Assembly: GCF_004341945.1 (NCBI RefSeq)
Contig: NZ_SMBP01000020.1
Location: 1 to 58,892, forward strand
Source of the DNA: Longicatena caecimuris
GTDB taxonomy: Bacteria > Bacillota_I > Bacilli_A > Erysipelotrichales > Erysipelotrichaceae
DNA length: 58,892 nucleotides
Direction: 5' to 3'
The notes beneath the pieces were generated by a model that was not told the origin of the DNA, searched no databases, and worked only from the letters and a program-made list of their open reading frames with translations. The position numbers and the translations under genes were made by a program. Of this stretch, positions 5,601-46,210 are shown piece after piece. Position 1 is the stretch's first letter; each line of letters starts with the position of its first letter.

Positions 5601-5830
5601 TAAAAGAAAAACTTCCGCCAAAGGACGAAAGTTCGTGGTACCACCTTTATTTATGTACTTGCTGTACACCTTAACATCGTTAACGCCGATGCTACGTTTT
5701 TTCCTGACTATTCAGAAAAACGGTTCCAGGGCCATCTTCTTTTTATTTCACCTGTGAATTTTCACCAGCCATTCACTCTCTGTAAGGCTTTCATAAAAAT
5801 ACTCTTCCTGTCTTTACCTTTCTATCAGTT
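5601..5830 (-). promoter_or_regulatory. T-box leader, methionine specific, with terminator
   Basis: On the minus strand the leader holds the T-box core AAGGTGGTACCACGAA (about 5647-5632), which pairs with the uncharged tRNA acceptor end. It overlaps an antiterminator/terminator switch. The terminator stem is CTTTCGTC / GGCGGAAG (5631-5612), followed by TTTTTCTTTTA. Stem I contains the conserved GAGAGTGAATGG and GGTG elements. The candidate specifier codon is ATG at 5735-5733 in AAGATGGCC, i.e. methionine. Uncharged tRNA-Met should raise metG expression. Confidence 0.9.
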
Positions 5831-31961: not shown

Positions 31962-33386
31962 TTACAATTGATAATTTTTTAATACATCCATGATAGCATC
32001 CACATGCGCACCATACACAATCTGAATTTCTTCTTTTGTCTTTAAATAACCGGCAGCACCATTTTGACGAATGCGCTTAAAAACAAACTTATCCTGATCT
32101 TTTAATGTGATATGAAGACGTGTGATACAGGAATGAATCGCAATGATATTTTCTGCCCCGCCACAGCCTTCAATGATGACTTTTGCCATCTCATTCAAAT
32201 CTTCAGCAGCAATACTTCCTTCTTGAAACGGCTCATTTTGATCATTCTCTCTTCCCGGAGTACAAAGATCAAATTTCTTGATCATTAATCGAAATAGCAC
32301 ATAATATATCACAAAGAAAAGCCCACCTTGAACGAATAGCATATATGGTTTTACTGCCATAGGGAGCGAACTCGCCAATACAAAGTCAATAGCCCCGGCA
32401 CTAAAGCTAAAGCCTGCAATATATTGTAAGCTGGCTGCCATAAACACCGAAATACCAGTCAGTAAAGCATGCATCACATAGAGCAATGGAGATAAGAACA
32501 TAAAGGAGAATTCTAATGGCTCCGTAACACCGGTGAGAAACGACGCAATAGCAGAGGATACAAAAAACGGCTTCATCTTCTTTTTCCGCGTAATAAAACA
32601 GCATTGATACATCGCCAAAGCCATGGCTACCACACCAAACATCATGATTGGATAATACCCTGCCTGATACATGCCCGTGACTCCGCGTATTCCCGTGCCT
32701 GCCCAATAATTGCCAATATCATTAATACCGATCACATCAAACCAAAAGATAGAATTTAACATATGGTGTAATCCCAATGGAACCAACAGGCGATTTAAAA
32801 ACGCATAAATACCTGCGCCCAAAGGTCCCATATCCTTGATCATGGTGCCAATGGAAATAAGCAATGTAAAAATGAGAGGCCAGACGATATATAAAACGAT
32901 GGAACAAAGCATAGCAAAGATGGAGGTATAAACCAAGACCCTAAAATCAGCAGGTAAATAGTTTGTAGAAACATGTTTACGACGATAACTAAATGCAGCT
33001 AACAGACCACTTAAAATCCCAATGAACTGATTATTAATATTGCCAAAAGCTTCATCTACCCGAAAGCGCAAGGTATCTTCTAAAAAAGAGACATTCGATA
33101 CCGAAAGCAAACTGGTGATAATAAGAAAACATAATAATCCATTACAGGCAGCTAAACCACTTTTATCATCACTTAGTTCATAAGCTACACCGATCGCAAA
33201 AATCATTGGCATCTGGGAGATGATAACATTTCCTGTTTTCTGCAAGATCATTGCCATAAAATATAGATTTTCCATACCACTTTCTTCTAATGCATAGCCA
33301 ATCCCCATAAGCAATGCCGCAGCCGGGAAGACGGCGATTGGCAACATGAGGGCTCTTCCTAATTTCTGTAGTTTCATCTTAATCAA
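31962..33386 (-). CDS. PTS EIICB component, glucose/GlcNAc family
   Basis: 474 aa membrane permease that imports and phosphorylates a sugar. EIIC spans about residues 1-370 with ten or so TM segments, GLHHMLNSIFWF near 210 and the substrate motif FLTGVTEPLEF near 292. EIIB follows at about 395-474 with phosphoacceptor Cys420 in IHSCITRLHITLKD. No EIIA domain is attached, so EIIA must come from elsewhere. A TTG start at 33386 (GGAAAG upstream, 8-nt overlap with the antiterminator) is slightly preferred over ATG 33377. Exact sugar unknown. Confidence 0.92.
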   Translation of the reverse strand: MIKMKLQKLGRALMLPIAVFPAAALLMGIGYALEESGMENLYFMAMILQKTGNVIISQMPMIFAIGVAYELSDDKSGLAACNGLLCFLIITSLLSVSNVSFLEDTLRFRVDEAFGNINNQFIGILSGLLAAFSYRRKHVSTNYLPADFRVLVYTSIFAMLCSIVLYIVWPLIFTLLISIGTMIKDMGPLGAGIYAFLNRLLVPLGLHHMLNSIFWFDVIGINDIGNYWAGTGIRGVTGMYQAGYYPIMMFGVVAMALAMYQCCFITRKKKMKPFFVSSAIASFLTGVTEPLEFSFMFLSPLLYVMHALLTGISVFMAASLQYIAGFSFSAGAIDFVLASSLPMAVKPYMLFVQGGLFFVIYYVLFRLMIKKFDLCTPGRENDQNEPFQEGSIAAEDLNEMAKVIIEGCGGAENIIAIHSCITRLHITLKDQDKFVFKRIRQNGAAGYLKTKEEIQIVYGAHVDAIMDVLKNYQL

Positions 33387-34209
33387 TCAGCTTTCCAATA
33401 TGGATCATCAGATACACCTGTTCATTTTCCTGTAGCTCATAATGATATTTTTCTTTGATCGTTTCTCTGATCTGATGAATACAATGTTCCATTTTATCAT
33501 TGCGTTTTATCAAAAAGGCATACAAATCGCCAAGCTCTTCTTTTTTCGTCTTTTGATTTGAAAACATATGCTGTCCCAAAAATTTTAAATGCGTAATAAA
33601 ACGTGAAAAGTTAAGTTCATTCTCATCAAGATGAACCTGATACGTTTCCTCAACGATTCGCTGTACATCTTTAATGAAACGTAAGATTTTTGATACATTA
33701 CTGCTACGCCCACCATTGTTTAATGTGGCATTGACGATATGCATGGCAATATAACCAGCCTCATCCTCTGGGAAACTGATTTCCGTATTTGCCTGAATGA
33801 GCTTTAACGCCCACAGACCCACTTTAAATTCTCTTTTATACAATGTTTTGATTTCATTTAACATGAAATTAGGGACATTGATATTCTGTTTCTTACGTTC
33901 TGCCGCATAATGGATGTGATCACTCAATGAGATCAATAGCTGTGGGCTCACTTCTATTTTTAAAGTCTCGCATACCTTACGGGCTATGACTTCAGCAATT
34001 CGAAAATACAAAATAGGTGTACGTTCCAACAGCATATGCAGCTGTTTTTTCTGTTCATCTTCAAAGGTATATGTCTTTTCAATGCGTTTTTCATCTACCG
34101 TATCGCCGGGCCGTTTATGAAAGCCGATTCCTGCTCCGACAATGATCATTTCCTGTTTGCCTCTAATTGCCGAAACAATATTGTTGTTGTAAACATGTAT
34201 GATTTGCAT
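33379..34209 (-). CDS. BglG/GlcT-family transcriptional antiterminator
   Basis: 276 aa. The N-terminal CAT RNA-binding domain (residues 1-55) reads MQIIHVYNNNIVSAI, then MIIVGAGIGFHKRPGD. PRD1 (about 65-170) has His in SLSDHIHYAAER. PRD2 (about 172-276) has EAGYIAMHIVNA, FLGQHMF and YLMIHIGK. These histidines are phosphorylated by PTS proteins to set activity. A RAT of GlcT type is found divergently at 35638-35667. The start at 34209 follows AAAGGAGGG. It sits between the pseudo-permease and the EIICB gene. GlcT is likelier than LicT because of that RAT and the glucose-family EIICB. Confidence 0.9.
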   Translation of the reverse strand: MQIIHVYNNNIVSAIRGKQEMIIVGAGIGFHKRPGDTVDEKRIEKTYTFEDEQKKQLHMLLERTPILYFRIAEVIARKVCETLKIEVSPQLLISLSDHIHYAAERKKQNINVPNFMLNEIKTLYKREFKVGLWALKLIQANTEISFPEDEAGYIAMHIVNATLNNGGRSSNVSKILRFIKDVQRIVEETYQVHLDENELNFSRFITHLKFLGQHMFSNQKTKKEELGDLYAFLIKRNDKMEHCIHQIRETIKEKYHYELQENEQVYLMIHIGKLID

Positions 34210-34222
34210 GATGTCCCTCCTT

Positions 34223-35482
34223 TTACAACAGCAATTGCTGTAATTCTTTTTCCTGTAACCTTTGCAACGCTTGCTGCAAAGCAAATGCCTGGTTACCTGC
34301 CGCCAATTCATAGCAGTATTCATCCTTTGCAAGATGATAAGCGCACAGCTTTAGTAATCGTTGTTCATCTACAAAATCCATGTCATACACAGTGATAAAT
34401 AAGCTGCGATCCATCACTTTCATCACTCTTATATTCTCCATGCCGCCAAAAACTTCTAACAGTTCTACGACATATTCATCATGGATAGCACCACGCTCTT
34501 CCTGGGGTAAATAAAGCCACTGTCTTTTATAAGAAAGCCATAGCAAGCTGATATAGATACTACCAAAAACGACCGTCAGCAATCCACCTGAAACAGAAAA
34601 GTAAGCCAAATAAAATATACAGCCACTCCCTATGCAATATACAAGCCATAATAGCGGTGCGCTGATAAACAAATACAACACAAAAGCGTCACTAGCCTGT
34701 GATAAGAGGCATTGTAACAGACACAAACTCACAAAAATAGCCATGGGATATCGTTTCTTATGAAGAAGGAATACCATCCAGGAAAGCATAAATGCAGGCA
34801 TTACACCATATTGCATGACGGTAATGCCCTTCTGAAAACCGGGAAGGATATAAAAACCATCACTGATATCACGTAAACCAACAATCACAAGTCCACTATT
34901 CAGTACTTTACTAATGCTTGCCCCAACTATTCCATGCTCATATAATACAGCTGTTAAAGAGAACAATTGACGTATTGTAAATGTCCAGATAAAGTAATAC
35001 GGAACAGCCAATCCCAACATGATGAAAATAGTTAATATCGGGACCAAACGACGTCCACTGAAAAAAGCCAGACTTTTGGGTAACTGTACTTGTGAAAACC
35101 GCTCAAATAGCTTTGCCGCAACCAATCCGCATAAGATGGCAGTCAATGGATTTTGAATATAATCTACAGCCACATCTACATGCCATTGATAAGCAAAAGC
35201 CTCATTCAAAACCTCACTTTGTAAAACACTGATGATGAGTAAATAAGCAATCATTGCGGATAAGACAACACTGCCATCCTTATGTCTACAAAACTGATAA
35301 GATACAAAGCCTGCCAGTAAGAAAGGCAGCGCCTTAGCATACAAGGCATCCAGACGAACAAATAGTGTCATAAAAGGAAGGATTTCAGCTAGTAGCTGAC
35401 TGATACTAGCCACGATGGAAACTATAGGAAGAAACAACAAAAGAGGCATACAGGCAACCCATAATTTTCGATACCAAGTCAT
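34223..35482 (-). CDS. PTS EIICB-like pseudo-permease lacking the phosphocysteine
   Basis: 419 aa with about ten TM segments and a C-terminal EIIB-like domain. Alignment by eye with the neighbouring EIICB over the GGxENI segment puts Met where the EIIB Cys should be (KVMDRSLFITVYD against IHSCITRLHITLKD). The Thr-Arg pair after the Cys is also lost. The EIIC substrate motif (GVTEPLEF) is replaced by LSQASDAFV. It therefore cannot carry out PTS phosphotransfer by the known route. It is the first gene of the operon; a sensor role for the antiterminator is an inference. Start 35482 has AAGGAAG 7 nt upstream. Confidence 0.75.
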   Translation of the reverse strand: MTWYRKLWVACMPLLLFLPIVSIVASISQLLAEILPFMTLFVRLDALYAKALPFLLAGFVSYQFCRHKDGSVVLSAMIAYLLIISVLQSEVLNEAFAYQWHVDVAVDYIQNPLTAILCGLVAAKLFERFSQVQLPKSLAFFSGRRLVPILTIFIMLGLAVPYYFIWTFTIRQLFSLTAVLYEHGIVGASISKVLNSGLVIVGLRDISDGFYILPGFQKGITVMQYGVMPAFMLSWMVFLLHKKRYPMAIFVSLCLLQCLLSQASDAFVLYLFISAPLLWLVYCIGSGCIFYLAYFSVSGGLLTVVFGSIYISLLWLSYKRQWLYLPQEERGAIHDEYVVELLEVFGGMENIRVMKVMDRSLFITVYDMDFVDEQRLLKLCAYHLAKDEYCYELAAGNQAFALQQALQRLQEKELQQLLL

Positions 35483-35503
35483 GAAACCACTTCCTTTTCT
35501 AGA

Positions 35504-35520
35504 ATTATAAAACGTTTTCA
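35504..35520 (-). promoter_or_regulatory. -10 box and cre-like site of the PTS operon
   Basis: TATAAT (35509-35504, minus strand) is the likely -10; the -35 is poor. Overlapping it on the plus strand, TATAAAACGTTTTCA (35506-35520) matches a catabolite-responsive element at 13 of 15 positions, the first TG being lost. CcpA control is possible but unproven. Confidence 0.4.
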
Positions 35521-35579
35521 TGATAACATTTTTTCACAAATTGTAAATATCGCAAATAAAAATTTTTTAAAAAAAGGGA

Positions 35580-36810: not shown

Positions 36811-36850
36811 AAAAAAAGCCTTCTATCTCAATTCACTTGTATAGAAGGCT
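36811..36850 (-). terminator. Terminator of the candidate large RNA
   Basis: Perfect 10-bp stem AGCCTTCTAT / ATAGAAGGCT with a 14-nt loop, followed by a run of T on the minus strand. Confidence 0.88.
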
Positions 36851-37635
36851 CTACTATTTATTTGTATGTTTATCACGACCATTCTCTTTCATGTCTTTGT
36901 ATAAGATATTCATCTTTTTACTTCGCGATTTCCATCAAATTACAATACATCAATCAAGAATAGCGCTACGTATCTGTTTCATTATGTCCACATAGGTCTT
37001 TTCCTATTTCCTTATCTAGCGCAGTTATTTCACCTTACTGCATTCTTATTGCCTATGTTTCACATTTTCACTTACGCTTTTGATTTCTCCTGACTTTGCT
37101 TGAATTCCAATGACGCTGCTCAAATCTCATCAGTATACTTAACGTTTGTGAATATCATGTTACCCTTTCATTGTTTGATACACTTACGTAATTACTACTA
37201 TTTACACAACCAATATGTGAAACACTTTCTTACGGTTCTCTTTACAACGAAATTATCTTAACATGATTTATATAATTTATCTTCTCACCACCCTTATACA
37301 TCTATTGTTATTACGAAGTAGTTTCTTGATAAATTCTATAATCCTAATGGAACAATACTATGGAGTTTCCTCATATCCCTATGAGTGATAACATCACTGT
37401 TATCGTTTCCTGATACCTTGTCTGCTGTCACCAGTACTTCTTCAGGCTTTAACTTCCGATGATCCTCACCGTATTTTCCTAAATTATGTTGAGATTATGA
37501 TATTGAAATAACTTTCCTCTGATGGAATACCTCTACAAGATACCCTTTCACGCATCAGCCTTGGACAAGTTCCATAATTCAACGATCAAACGTTCCCATC
37601 TTCTCACCGCTTTCTTTTGTTTTCTTTTTCTTTAC
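36811..37635 (-). ncRNA. Candidate large structured noncoding RNA, about 825 nt
   Basis: Bounded by a good promoter and a strong terminator on the minus strand, with no open frame that has a start codon and ribosome binding site. The transcript strand is purine-rich with many GGAAA and GAAAG-like joints. Compact hairpins (plus coordinates): 37581-37594, 37562-37574, 37519-37558, 37409-37446 with an inner GUGA tetraloop at 37425-37434, 37387-37404, 37370-37385 with a GGGA loop, 37205-37219, 37021-37041, a long-range GCGCTA / TAGCGC pair (37017-37022 with 36963-36968) enclosing 36992-37007, and 36903-36916. The 11-mer GGTGAGAAGAT occurs twice (37608-37598 and 37289-37279). Known giant RNAs of similar size include OLE, GOLLD and ROOL; I cannot assign a family. 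Confidence 0.65.
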
Positions 37636-37641
37636 ACTTTC

Positions 37642-37669
37642 ATTATATTCGTCAATCTGATTATGTAAA
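37642..37669 (-). promoter_or_regulatory. Promoter of the candidate large RNA
   Basis: -35 TTTACA (37669-37664), 16-nt spacer, consensus -10 TATAAT (37647-37642) on the minus strand, in the gap after the LytTR gene. Confidence 0.75.
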
Positions 37670-37712
37670 GAGAAGTGGAAAATCTGGCGTTTTTTTGGAA
37701 TAATCTGTTACT

Positions 37713-38399
37713 TTATGTATGCTTAGTGAAATCTCTTACTTTGGCAATGACTTCCGGTCGTCTAGCTCTTGCAAAAGGTAATTCTATTTTCTGCAAAAAT
37801 ACACTTTCTGTTTCAAATCGCGTTACATATTGCAAATTAACCAAAAAACTGGAATGAATCCGTAAAAAGTGATATTTTTCAAAATACTTTTCAGCATCTT
37901 TAATACTCTTGCGTTCACTGAATTCTCCTCGTTTTGTATGATAAACAAGGTTTTTATTGTCTTTTTCAATGTAATAAATATCACTGATTTTCAAAGGTAC
38001 ACTGATATGGTTATAAGAGAAAAAATATTCTTCCTGATTGGCTAATAAATTTCGCACAAAAGGATCAATACGCTGTAATTCATGTCGTAATCGTCTACGA
38101 TCGATATATAAAATACGTTCAAAGTTGCCAACTTCATGTTCATAACGTTTTTCTTCTACCGTTGTAAATATGACAACACGTTCCGGATAAGGTTGAATAA
38201 AGGTGCCGGCAATTCTTTGCGTGTCAAATTTATCTTGAAGAATAAGAATCTGATATTCTTTCTGCTGTTGGGCTTTCACAAATTGTGACAACTTTGCGAA
38301 ATACTGAAAGGTCCAATCTTCATCCTTTAAAATATCCCCTAAAATGAATAAGATATTTTTTACCATTTCTTCACTTTCTAAAATTGCCACCCTTAACAT
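37713..38399 (-). CDS. LytTR-domain response regulator with degenerate receiver
   Basis: 228 aa. The C-terminal LytTR DNA-binding domain spans about residues 125-228 (SVPLKISDIYYIEKDNKNLVYHT, then FLRIHSSFLVNLQYV). The N-terminal 115 residues resemble a CheY-like receiver in length, but the acidic pocket is altered (VAILESEE) and the phosphoacceptor strand reads LILQDKF, so phosphorylation is uncertain. The start at 38399 follows GAGGTGAGG. It lies 20 nt after the YdjC gene. No histidine kinase is nearby. Confidence 0.85.
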   Translation of the reverse strand: MLRVAILESEEMVKNILFILGDILKDEDWTFQYFAKLSQFVKAQQQKEYQILILQDKFDTQRIAGTFIQPYPERVVIFTTVEEKRYEHEVGNFERILYIDRRRLRHELQRIDPFVRNLLANQEEYFFSYNHISVPLKISDIYYIEKDNKNLVYHTKRGEFSERKSIKDAEKYFEKYHFLRIHSSFLVNLQYVTRFETESVFLQKIELPFARARRPEVIAKVRDFTKHT

Positions 38400-38419
38400 G
38401 ACCCTCACCTCATCTTTTC

Positions 38420-46049: not shown

Positions 46050-46168
46050 AATAAAAAAACATGAAAAGTTCACAAGAAACCTTCATGACCATGTCAAAAG
46101 ATTCCTTGTAGTCCACCGATTAGGTCAGCGGGTAGAAACTATCAACCAAATTATGATACTATACAAGG
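46050..46168 (-). promoter_or_regulatory. Guanine riboswitch with terminator platform
   Basis: Minus strand. P1 CCTTG / CAAGG closes the aptamer (46168-46104). J1/2 TATAGT, P2 TATCA / TGATA with a loop ending GG, J2/3 GTTTCTACC, P3 CCGCTG / CGGTGG with a loop holding CC, and J3/1 ACTA complete it. The residue equivalent to C74 is C, so guanine or hypoxanthine is expected rather than adenine. Downstream, CATGAA / TTCATG (46088-46060) with seven T is the terminator. ACAAGGAA in the P1 3' side can pair with TTTCTTGT in the terminator as antiterminator. Confidence 0.88.
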
Positions 46169-46181
46169 TTTTACCACATTT

Positions 46182-46210
46182 ATTTTACTTTATTTCATGT
46201 ACTTTTACAA
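46182..46210 (-). promoter_or_regulatory. purD promoter
   Basis: -35 TTGTAA (46210-46205), 17-nt spacer, -10 TAAAAT (46187-46182) on the minus strand, just ahead of the aptamer. Confidence 0.78.

Follow-up and report, generated by a model that had tools for sequence, protein, structure and literature searches.

A conserved structured RNA with a 5′-proximal mini-ORF, linked to a LytTR-family regulator gene in Longicatena caecimuris and related Erysipelotrichaceae

The 58,892-nt stretch of Longicatena caecimuris DNA analysed here (the window) contains, on its minus strand, about 825 nt (36811–37635) with a promoter and a terminator of their own and no ordinary gene between them, which raises the question of what kind of transcript this locus would produce. 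All features of the locus described below lie on the minus strand. The promoter (TTTACA-16-TATAAT, 37642–37669) comprises a −35 element TTTACA (37669–37664), a 16-nt spacer and a −10 element TATAAT (37647–37642), and is conserved in homologues; we infer the RNA 5′ end to lie ~7 nt past the −10. The intrinsic terminator (36811–36850) consists of a 10-bp stem followed by T7. For both signals the letters are exactly those given in the initial annotation, which had proposed a giant structured RNA of unclear role and had found no start codon with a ribosome-binding site (RBS) in the interval. The latter statement holds for ordinary genes, but a mini-ORF at 37579–37599 possesses both a start codon and a Shine-Dalgarno-like site. 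Together, the mini-ORF, a neighbouring LytTR gene and repeats in the promoter region shift the picture to a regulator-driven RNA.

The transcript strand is purine-rich, as had been claimed: at 62.4% purine it exceeds each of the 1162 stretches of 825 nt taken from the two strands of the window. The minimum free energy of the 825 nt (−177.9) is well below that of 20 dinucleotide shuffles (−152.9 ± 5.5; z −4.56), so that the RNA folds more stably than its shuffled versions, consistent with a structured RNA. A startless frame of 52 codons (37494–37336), previously listed as a weakness of the noncoding reading, is not supported as coding sequence: when the first 380 nt were aligned in pairs with three homologues, 15 gaps had lengths not divisible by 3, and no frame was long in every relative. 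Because of these frameshifting gaps and the lack of a long common frame, the alignments support the view that the interval is not a protein gene.

The RNA resembles OLE, GOLLD and ROOL in size class and dense structure; however, neither the L. caecimuris window nor 20 homologous loci matched the covariance models of these three families, and the earlier idea of a diverged member of one of them is thus not borne out. The RNAIII model (RF00503) was likewise unmatched, and no relevant Rfam 15 family was detected in the RNA interval at gathering or permissive thresholds, or in the 20 homologous loci at gathering thresholds. Several observations support the proposal of a stand-alone structured RNA outside Rfam: the sequence is conserved, helices covary, the promoter is likewise kept, and homologues possess terminator-like hairpins. 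The titles and abstracts listed in searches of the open-access literature, only partly aimed at this taxon, contained no description of this RNA, and the main texts of two structured-RNA surveys mention Erysipelotrichia once each and LytTR never. Regulatory RNAs driven by LytTR proteins are a known kind; the present RNA family and its mini-ORF design appear to be new.

A DNA search of 272 genomes of the family Erysipelotrichaceae recovered homologues of the RNA, including one in G006. The 5′ half is matched at 70–82% identity over ~300 nt in three genomes (G175, G200 and G007), two of which also match the 3′ part, and about ten further genomes have matches of roughly 50–75 nt spanning the promoter and leader. 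Nearly all matches share a common layout, namely the promoter, a AAAGTGTAAA-like leader, the block AGAGAGCGGTGRGAARATG and ~200–900 nt of noncoding sequence, and nearly all homologous loci end in a terminator-like hairpin; the span from mini-ORF to terminator ranges from ~215 to 900 nt. Towards the 3′ end, a module at 36892–36998 carries the blocks CCUAUGUGG, GAUGUAUUGUAAU and AUACAAAGACA, conserved in two homologous loci (L021 and L022) and partly in two others (L020 and L066). A long-range helix previously proposed between GCGCTA and TAGCGC (37017–37022 with 36963–36968) is lost in L021, the closest full homologue (GTAGCGATATGG), and is therefore unsupported. A 26-nt match elsewhere in the L. 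caecimuris genome (C2:148234) covers the leader stretch only, with no repeats and no −10, and was set aside as chance or a remnant.

The relatives form two groups, a long group of ten sequences that includes the L. caecimuris RNA, and a short group from which a covariance model (R1) was built. R1 was run against 315 genomes of the order and 296 sampled from the class and matched Erysipelotrichaceae only, and it recovered the L. caecimuris RNA only at E 0.04. The tie between the groups rests mainly on the 5′ block, the promoter and the gene order, and less on the covariance model.

Orthologues of the LytTR protein (E < 1e-30) were identified in 43 of the 272 genomes, and in 26 of these 43 the RNA lies downstream of the orthologue, either directly or ~0.5–1.4 kb apart (G175, G007 and genus g8). 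The count comprises 24 genomes with the exact 5′ motif described below, together with L. caecimuris and G099, whose motifs are off at one or a few positions. The RNA adjoins the likely regulator in, for example, Amedibacillus dolichus, where its predicted length is ~640 nt, Faecalitalea cylindroides and Faecalicoccus pleomorphus. In the other 17 genomes that have the LytTR gene, it is either not recognisable or strongly altered. Three Merdibacter genomes possess a second, shorter copy of the RNA, which in the one genome examined sits beyond an asparaginase-like gene.

The RNA opens with the conserved block GAGAGCGGUGRGAARAUG. The Shine-Dalgarno-like sequence GCGGTGAGAAG (37600–37610) lies within the most conserved motif, RAGAGNGGTGRGAANATGRNA, which occurs exactly in 25 of the 272 genomes. 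Of these, 24 encode a LytTR orthologue, so that the motif is found in 24/43 genomes with the orthologue vs 1/229 without it (Fisher p ~1e-21); the letters of the 25th match (G250) look like an ordinary gene start, and it was rejected as an RNA locus. The initial annotation had drawn attention to a repeated GGTGAGAAGAT. Both copies are present (37598–37608 and 37279–37289), but conservation was seen only for the first, which forms the mini-ORF start, and the second was discarded as a conserved element. A leader and start site resembling those of the RNA (TATAATGAAATTGTAAAAAG...AAAGCGGTGATAATCATGGGAACT) also precede a longer frame in another genome (G157, L030, ~3125–3060, minus strand), where no obvious repeats are evident.

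The mini-ORF (ATG GGA ACG TTT GAT CGT TGA; MGTFDR*) has six codons in L. caecimuris, and an in-frame stop follows after 3–12 codons in all 29 copies compared (after no more than 6 in 26 of them). Those of the MG type have their stop at codon 7 in 11/11 cases, with TGA, TAA and TAG interchangeable, and within each of the MTIH, MTIQ and MTRDL types the copies differ only at silent or stop positions. Since the peptide is not conserved overall among the 29 copies, the selected feature is likely to be the act of starting and ending translation at this site. In the long group the stop codon lies inside a helix, P2, which begins two nucleotides ahead of it, and in the short group P2 begins right after the stop.

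P2 pairs 37573–37583, the arm that holds the stop codon, with 37488–37499. For the first 7–10 pairs of the helix, all 96 cells in the ten long-group sequences hold standard pairs, and several of the pairs show two-sided changes; one bulged C was taken out by hand from the L. caecimuris sequence for this comparison. Across 25 sequences, native arms average −12.1 kcal/mol vs −6.5 kcal/mol for swapped arms, a difference reached in 0 of 20000 permutations. Further downstream, hairpin P3 (CGGUG/CAUCG, 37457–37471), in the conserved AUACGG motif, has an equivalent in nearly all sequences; in alignment A2 its five pairs are 100% kept and one shows a two-sided change, so that P3 covaries weakly. The P4 region (GCCUGA...UCAGG around CUGGUGACAGCAG, 37406–37449) has two-sided changes at all five pairs in the short group (A2; 0/20000 permutations). 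For P3 and P4 combined, 92% of short-group cells are paired, with 22 two-sided changes vs 6.7 in shuffles; nearly all of these are in P4, and far fewer arise when the partners are slid.

The two adjacent hairpins of the initial annotation are both present, and both covary in homologues. P5 (37387–37404; loop AGUGAU) shows the two-sided changes GATAAC/GTTATC, GATAGA/TCTATC, GAAAGT/ACTTTC and GGAAAT/GTTTCC (2/20000 permutations), and the arms of P6 (37370–37385; loop GGGA) differ among homologues and are paired in all of them, with native energy reached in 151/20000 permutations. MAFFT failed to align P2, P5 and P6 across groups, and their arms were therefore chosen and compared by hand. The permutations take no account of relatedness, and the choice of several arms was made by eye; these tests are therefore strong but not formal evidence that P2, P4, P5 and P6 covary.

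Upstream of the RNA, the neighbouring gene (37713–38408) encodes a 231-aa LytTR-family regulator with an N-terminal receiver-like domain, the closest named relative of which (63% identity) is from a Longicatena MAG. The protein matches Pfam LytTR (1.9e-15), and its AlphaFold model, for which 26 relatives were used (pLDDT 85), shows an N-terminal domain of alternating beta and alpha elements and, after it, the LytTR domain; the best solved Foldseek matches are full-length ComE (4cbv) and LytTR domains, AgrA's among them. Position 58, located after strand 3 of the model and the presumed phosphate acceptor, is Q in L. caecimuris and D, H or N in the other orthologues, and the conserved acceptor Asp of a canonical response regulator was thus not found at this position. 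Because the presumed acceptor is not conserved, phosphorylation of the regulator is doubtful, at least in L. caecimuris. No kinase gene lies beside the regulator gene at this locus, and the protein had no match in viral contigs.

Between the regulator gene and the −35 element are two LytTR-type boxes, ACAGATTATTCCA (37696–37708) and GCCAGATTTTCCA (37676–37688), 20 bp apart, with the second ending 6 bp before the −35. Across 29 homologous promoters, a direct repeat upstream of the −35 has its best period at 21 bp (z 9.0), followed by 20 bp (z 3.1) and 22 bp (z 2.4), all other periods scoring no more than 1.6; the 20-bp spacing in L. caecimuris contrasts with 21 bp in most of the 29. From their position, repeat layout and linkage, the boxes are predicted to be bound by the neighbouring regulator.

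Allowing two mismatches, the box pattern recurs at two more loci in the same genome, both of which lack the mini-ORF motif. At C1:84442 (L178, 1501–1990) the boxes are followed by TTTACA, a −10-like TATAGT and ~400 nt of purine-rich sequence that includes a terminator-like hairpin and is flanked by two genes. A relative in G175 (L210; 76% over 78 nt) lies between different genes; it too has a promoter, a terminator and a similar RNA, and its repeats fit the box pattern with three mismatches. At C16:46348 (L182, 1501–1840) the boxes precede ~265 nt of noncoding sequence with hairpins and a terminator; no comparable relative was found, matches elsewhere being short. In G169 and G170 (L187 and L188), the pattern stands ~130 nt before a gene whose product is predicted to be a small membrane or secreted protein (MKKLGYLAGASLLFVPMPLYAAG...). 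Most of the three-mismatch matches inspected fall inside genes and were set aside. A small regulon consisting mostly of RNAs is reasonably inferred from these loci.

Large regulatory RNAs under the control of LytTR regulators have been described in a few pathogens; the locus described here points to the same logic in gut Erysipelotrichaceae, with a conserved and uncatalogued RNA family. In Staphylococcus aureus, the LytTR regulator AgrA is paired with RNAIII, a large structured RNA with an ORF near its 5′ end. The AgrA LytTR domain is among the top structural matches of the L. caecimuris regulator, although the gene for the latter has no adjoining kinase gene. Unlike RNAIII, the L. caecimuris RNA has no hld-like (delta-haemolysin) frame near its 5′ end, where only the six-codon MGTFDR* with its Shine-Dalgarno-like site is found, and RNAIII-type C-rich loops for target Shine-Dalgarno sequences were not found in the 825 nt, which contain no CCC and no CCUCC.

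The layout of the repeats is that of VirR and RgaR sites. In Clostridioides difficile, the VirR-like regulator RgaR activates the regulatory RNA SpoZ via two direct repeats, with key G residues at −51 and −72 of the spoZ promoter, 21 bp apart (PMC10602386). SpoZ differs in being a small RNA, and RgaR in having a kinase partner, RgaS; the likeness is one of description and not of sequence comparison, and the portions of that paper available here do not mention a mini-ORF for SpoZ (PMC10602386). VirR of Clostridium perfringens similarly acts at paired repeats next to the −35 and has several regulatory RNAs (VR-RNA, VirT and VirU), which are likened here by description; in contrast to the L. caecimuris protein, VirR has a partner kinase and protein-gene targets (PMC2838878, PMC10602386).

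We therefore weigh several readings of the locus. The one that we favour, with a probability of about 0.58, is a LytTR-activated, stand-alone, trans-acting regulatory RNA in the manner of RNAIII, VR-RNA and SpoZ, to which it is likened by mode of action and not by sequence. It builds on the conserved RNA and its structure, the repeats, the LytTR linkage and the mini-ORF, all of which are established by the genome comparisons. The product of the adjacent gene would bind the pair of direct repeats that lies shortly before the −35 and so activate the purine-rich structured RNA of ~825 nt, which would in turn regulate targets in trans; a ribosome at the mini-ORF would protect the RNA against decay from the 5′ end and, while present, open P2. 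In Bacillus, an RBS near the 5′ end stabilises a long downstream RNA (PMC3997798), and stabilisation is for this reason the simplest role for the RBS of the mini-ORF. STAB-SD and ermC-type stabilisers likewise place an RBS close to the 5′ end of a long Firmicute RNA that is largely untranslated (PMC3997798), but in the present RNA the RBS leads a conserved start codon and, soon after it, a stop codon connected with a helix. This contact between stop codon and P2 leaves room for a switch.

Such a switch, in which translation of the mini-ORF is itself the signal and the RNA reports on translation, is a distinctly less probable reading. Initiation and termination would open P2 and permit another fold, and without ribosomes P2 would close together with a pairing between GAUGA of the AUG region and a conserved UCRUC that lies ~250 alignment columns from it in the short group. 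The position of the stop inside P2 (long group) or just before it (short group) and the retention of the act of translation with a varying peptide would fit this reading, as would the capacity for the AUG pairing; however, that pairing is tentative, showing one-sided changes only, failing in L095 and not being found in the long group. In addition, no downstream gene is controlled, and a 5′ RBS serving stability accounts for the same features. A broader version, at similarly long odds, would be a new class of LytTR-driven RNAs with fold, and hence activity, set by a ribosome that translates an ORF of 3–12 codons whose stop lies in or beside the central helix, with several RNAs in one regulon per genome. 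The size, many helices, purine-richness and several conserved blocks could also suit a scaffold that binds protein in a ribonucleoprotein particle of the OLE, GOLLD or ROOL style, with LytTR setting its amount only. We consider this somewhat less probable again, given that none of those models is matched and that a mini-ORF-to-terminator span of ~215 to 900 nt is unusual for a fixed particle.

Improbable in our view is that the transcript serves as mRNA for a micropeptide (MGTFDR and relatives) with a signalling or regulatory role, the remainder being a long 3′ UTR. This reading would account for the conserved RBS, start and stop, and for a 12-codon version in the three Merdibacter second copies that has one amino-acid and one silent difference; yet the peptide is reduced to 3 residues in some species, differs freely and is too short for an export signal, and conserved structure runs on for hundreds of nucleotides. 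Short open frames do occur on both strands, but a decayed protein gene or a set of chance hairpins is scarcely credible in light of the covariation, the conserved promoter and ends, the frameshifting gaps and the absence of a frame common to the relatives. The mini-ORF, whose stop codon falls within a covarying helix, offers a direct test of ribosome control over the fold or lifetime of a long noncoding RNA.

Elsewhere on the minus strand of the window, a T-box leader (RF00230, 125.8 bits) was identified at 5618–5823 and a purine riboswitch aptamer (RF00167, 57.8 bits) at 46089–46186, and the region at 31962–35521 encodes a BglG/LicT-type antiterminator (CAT_RBD and PRD domains) flanked on both sides by PTS permease genes.
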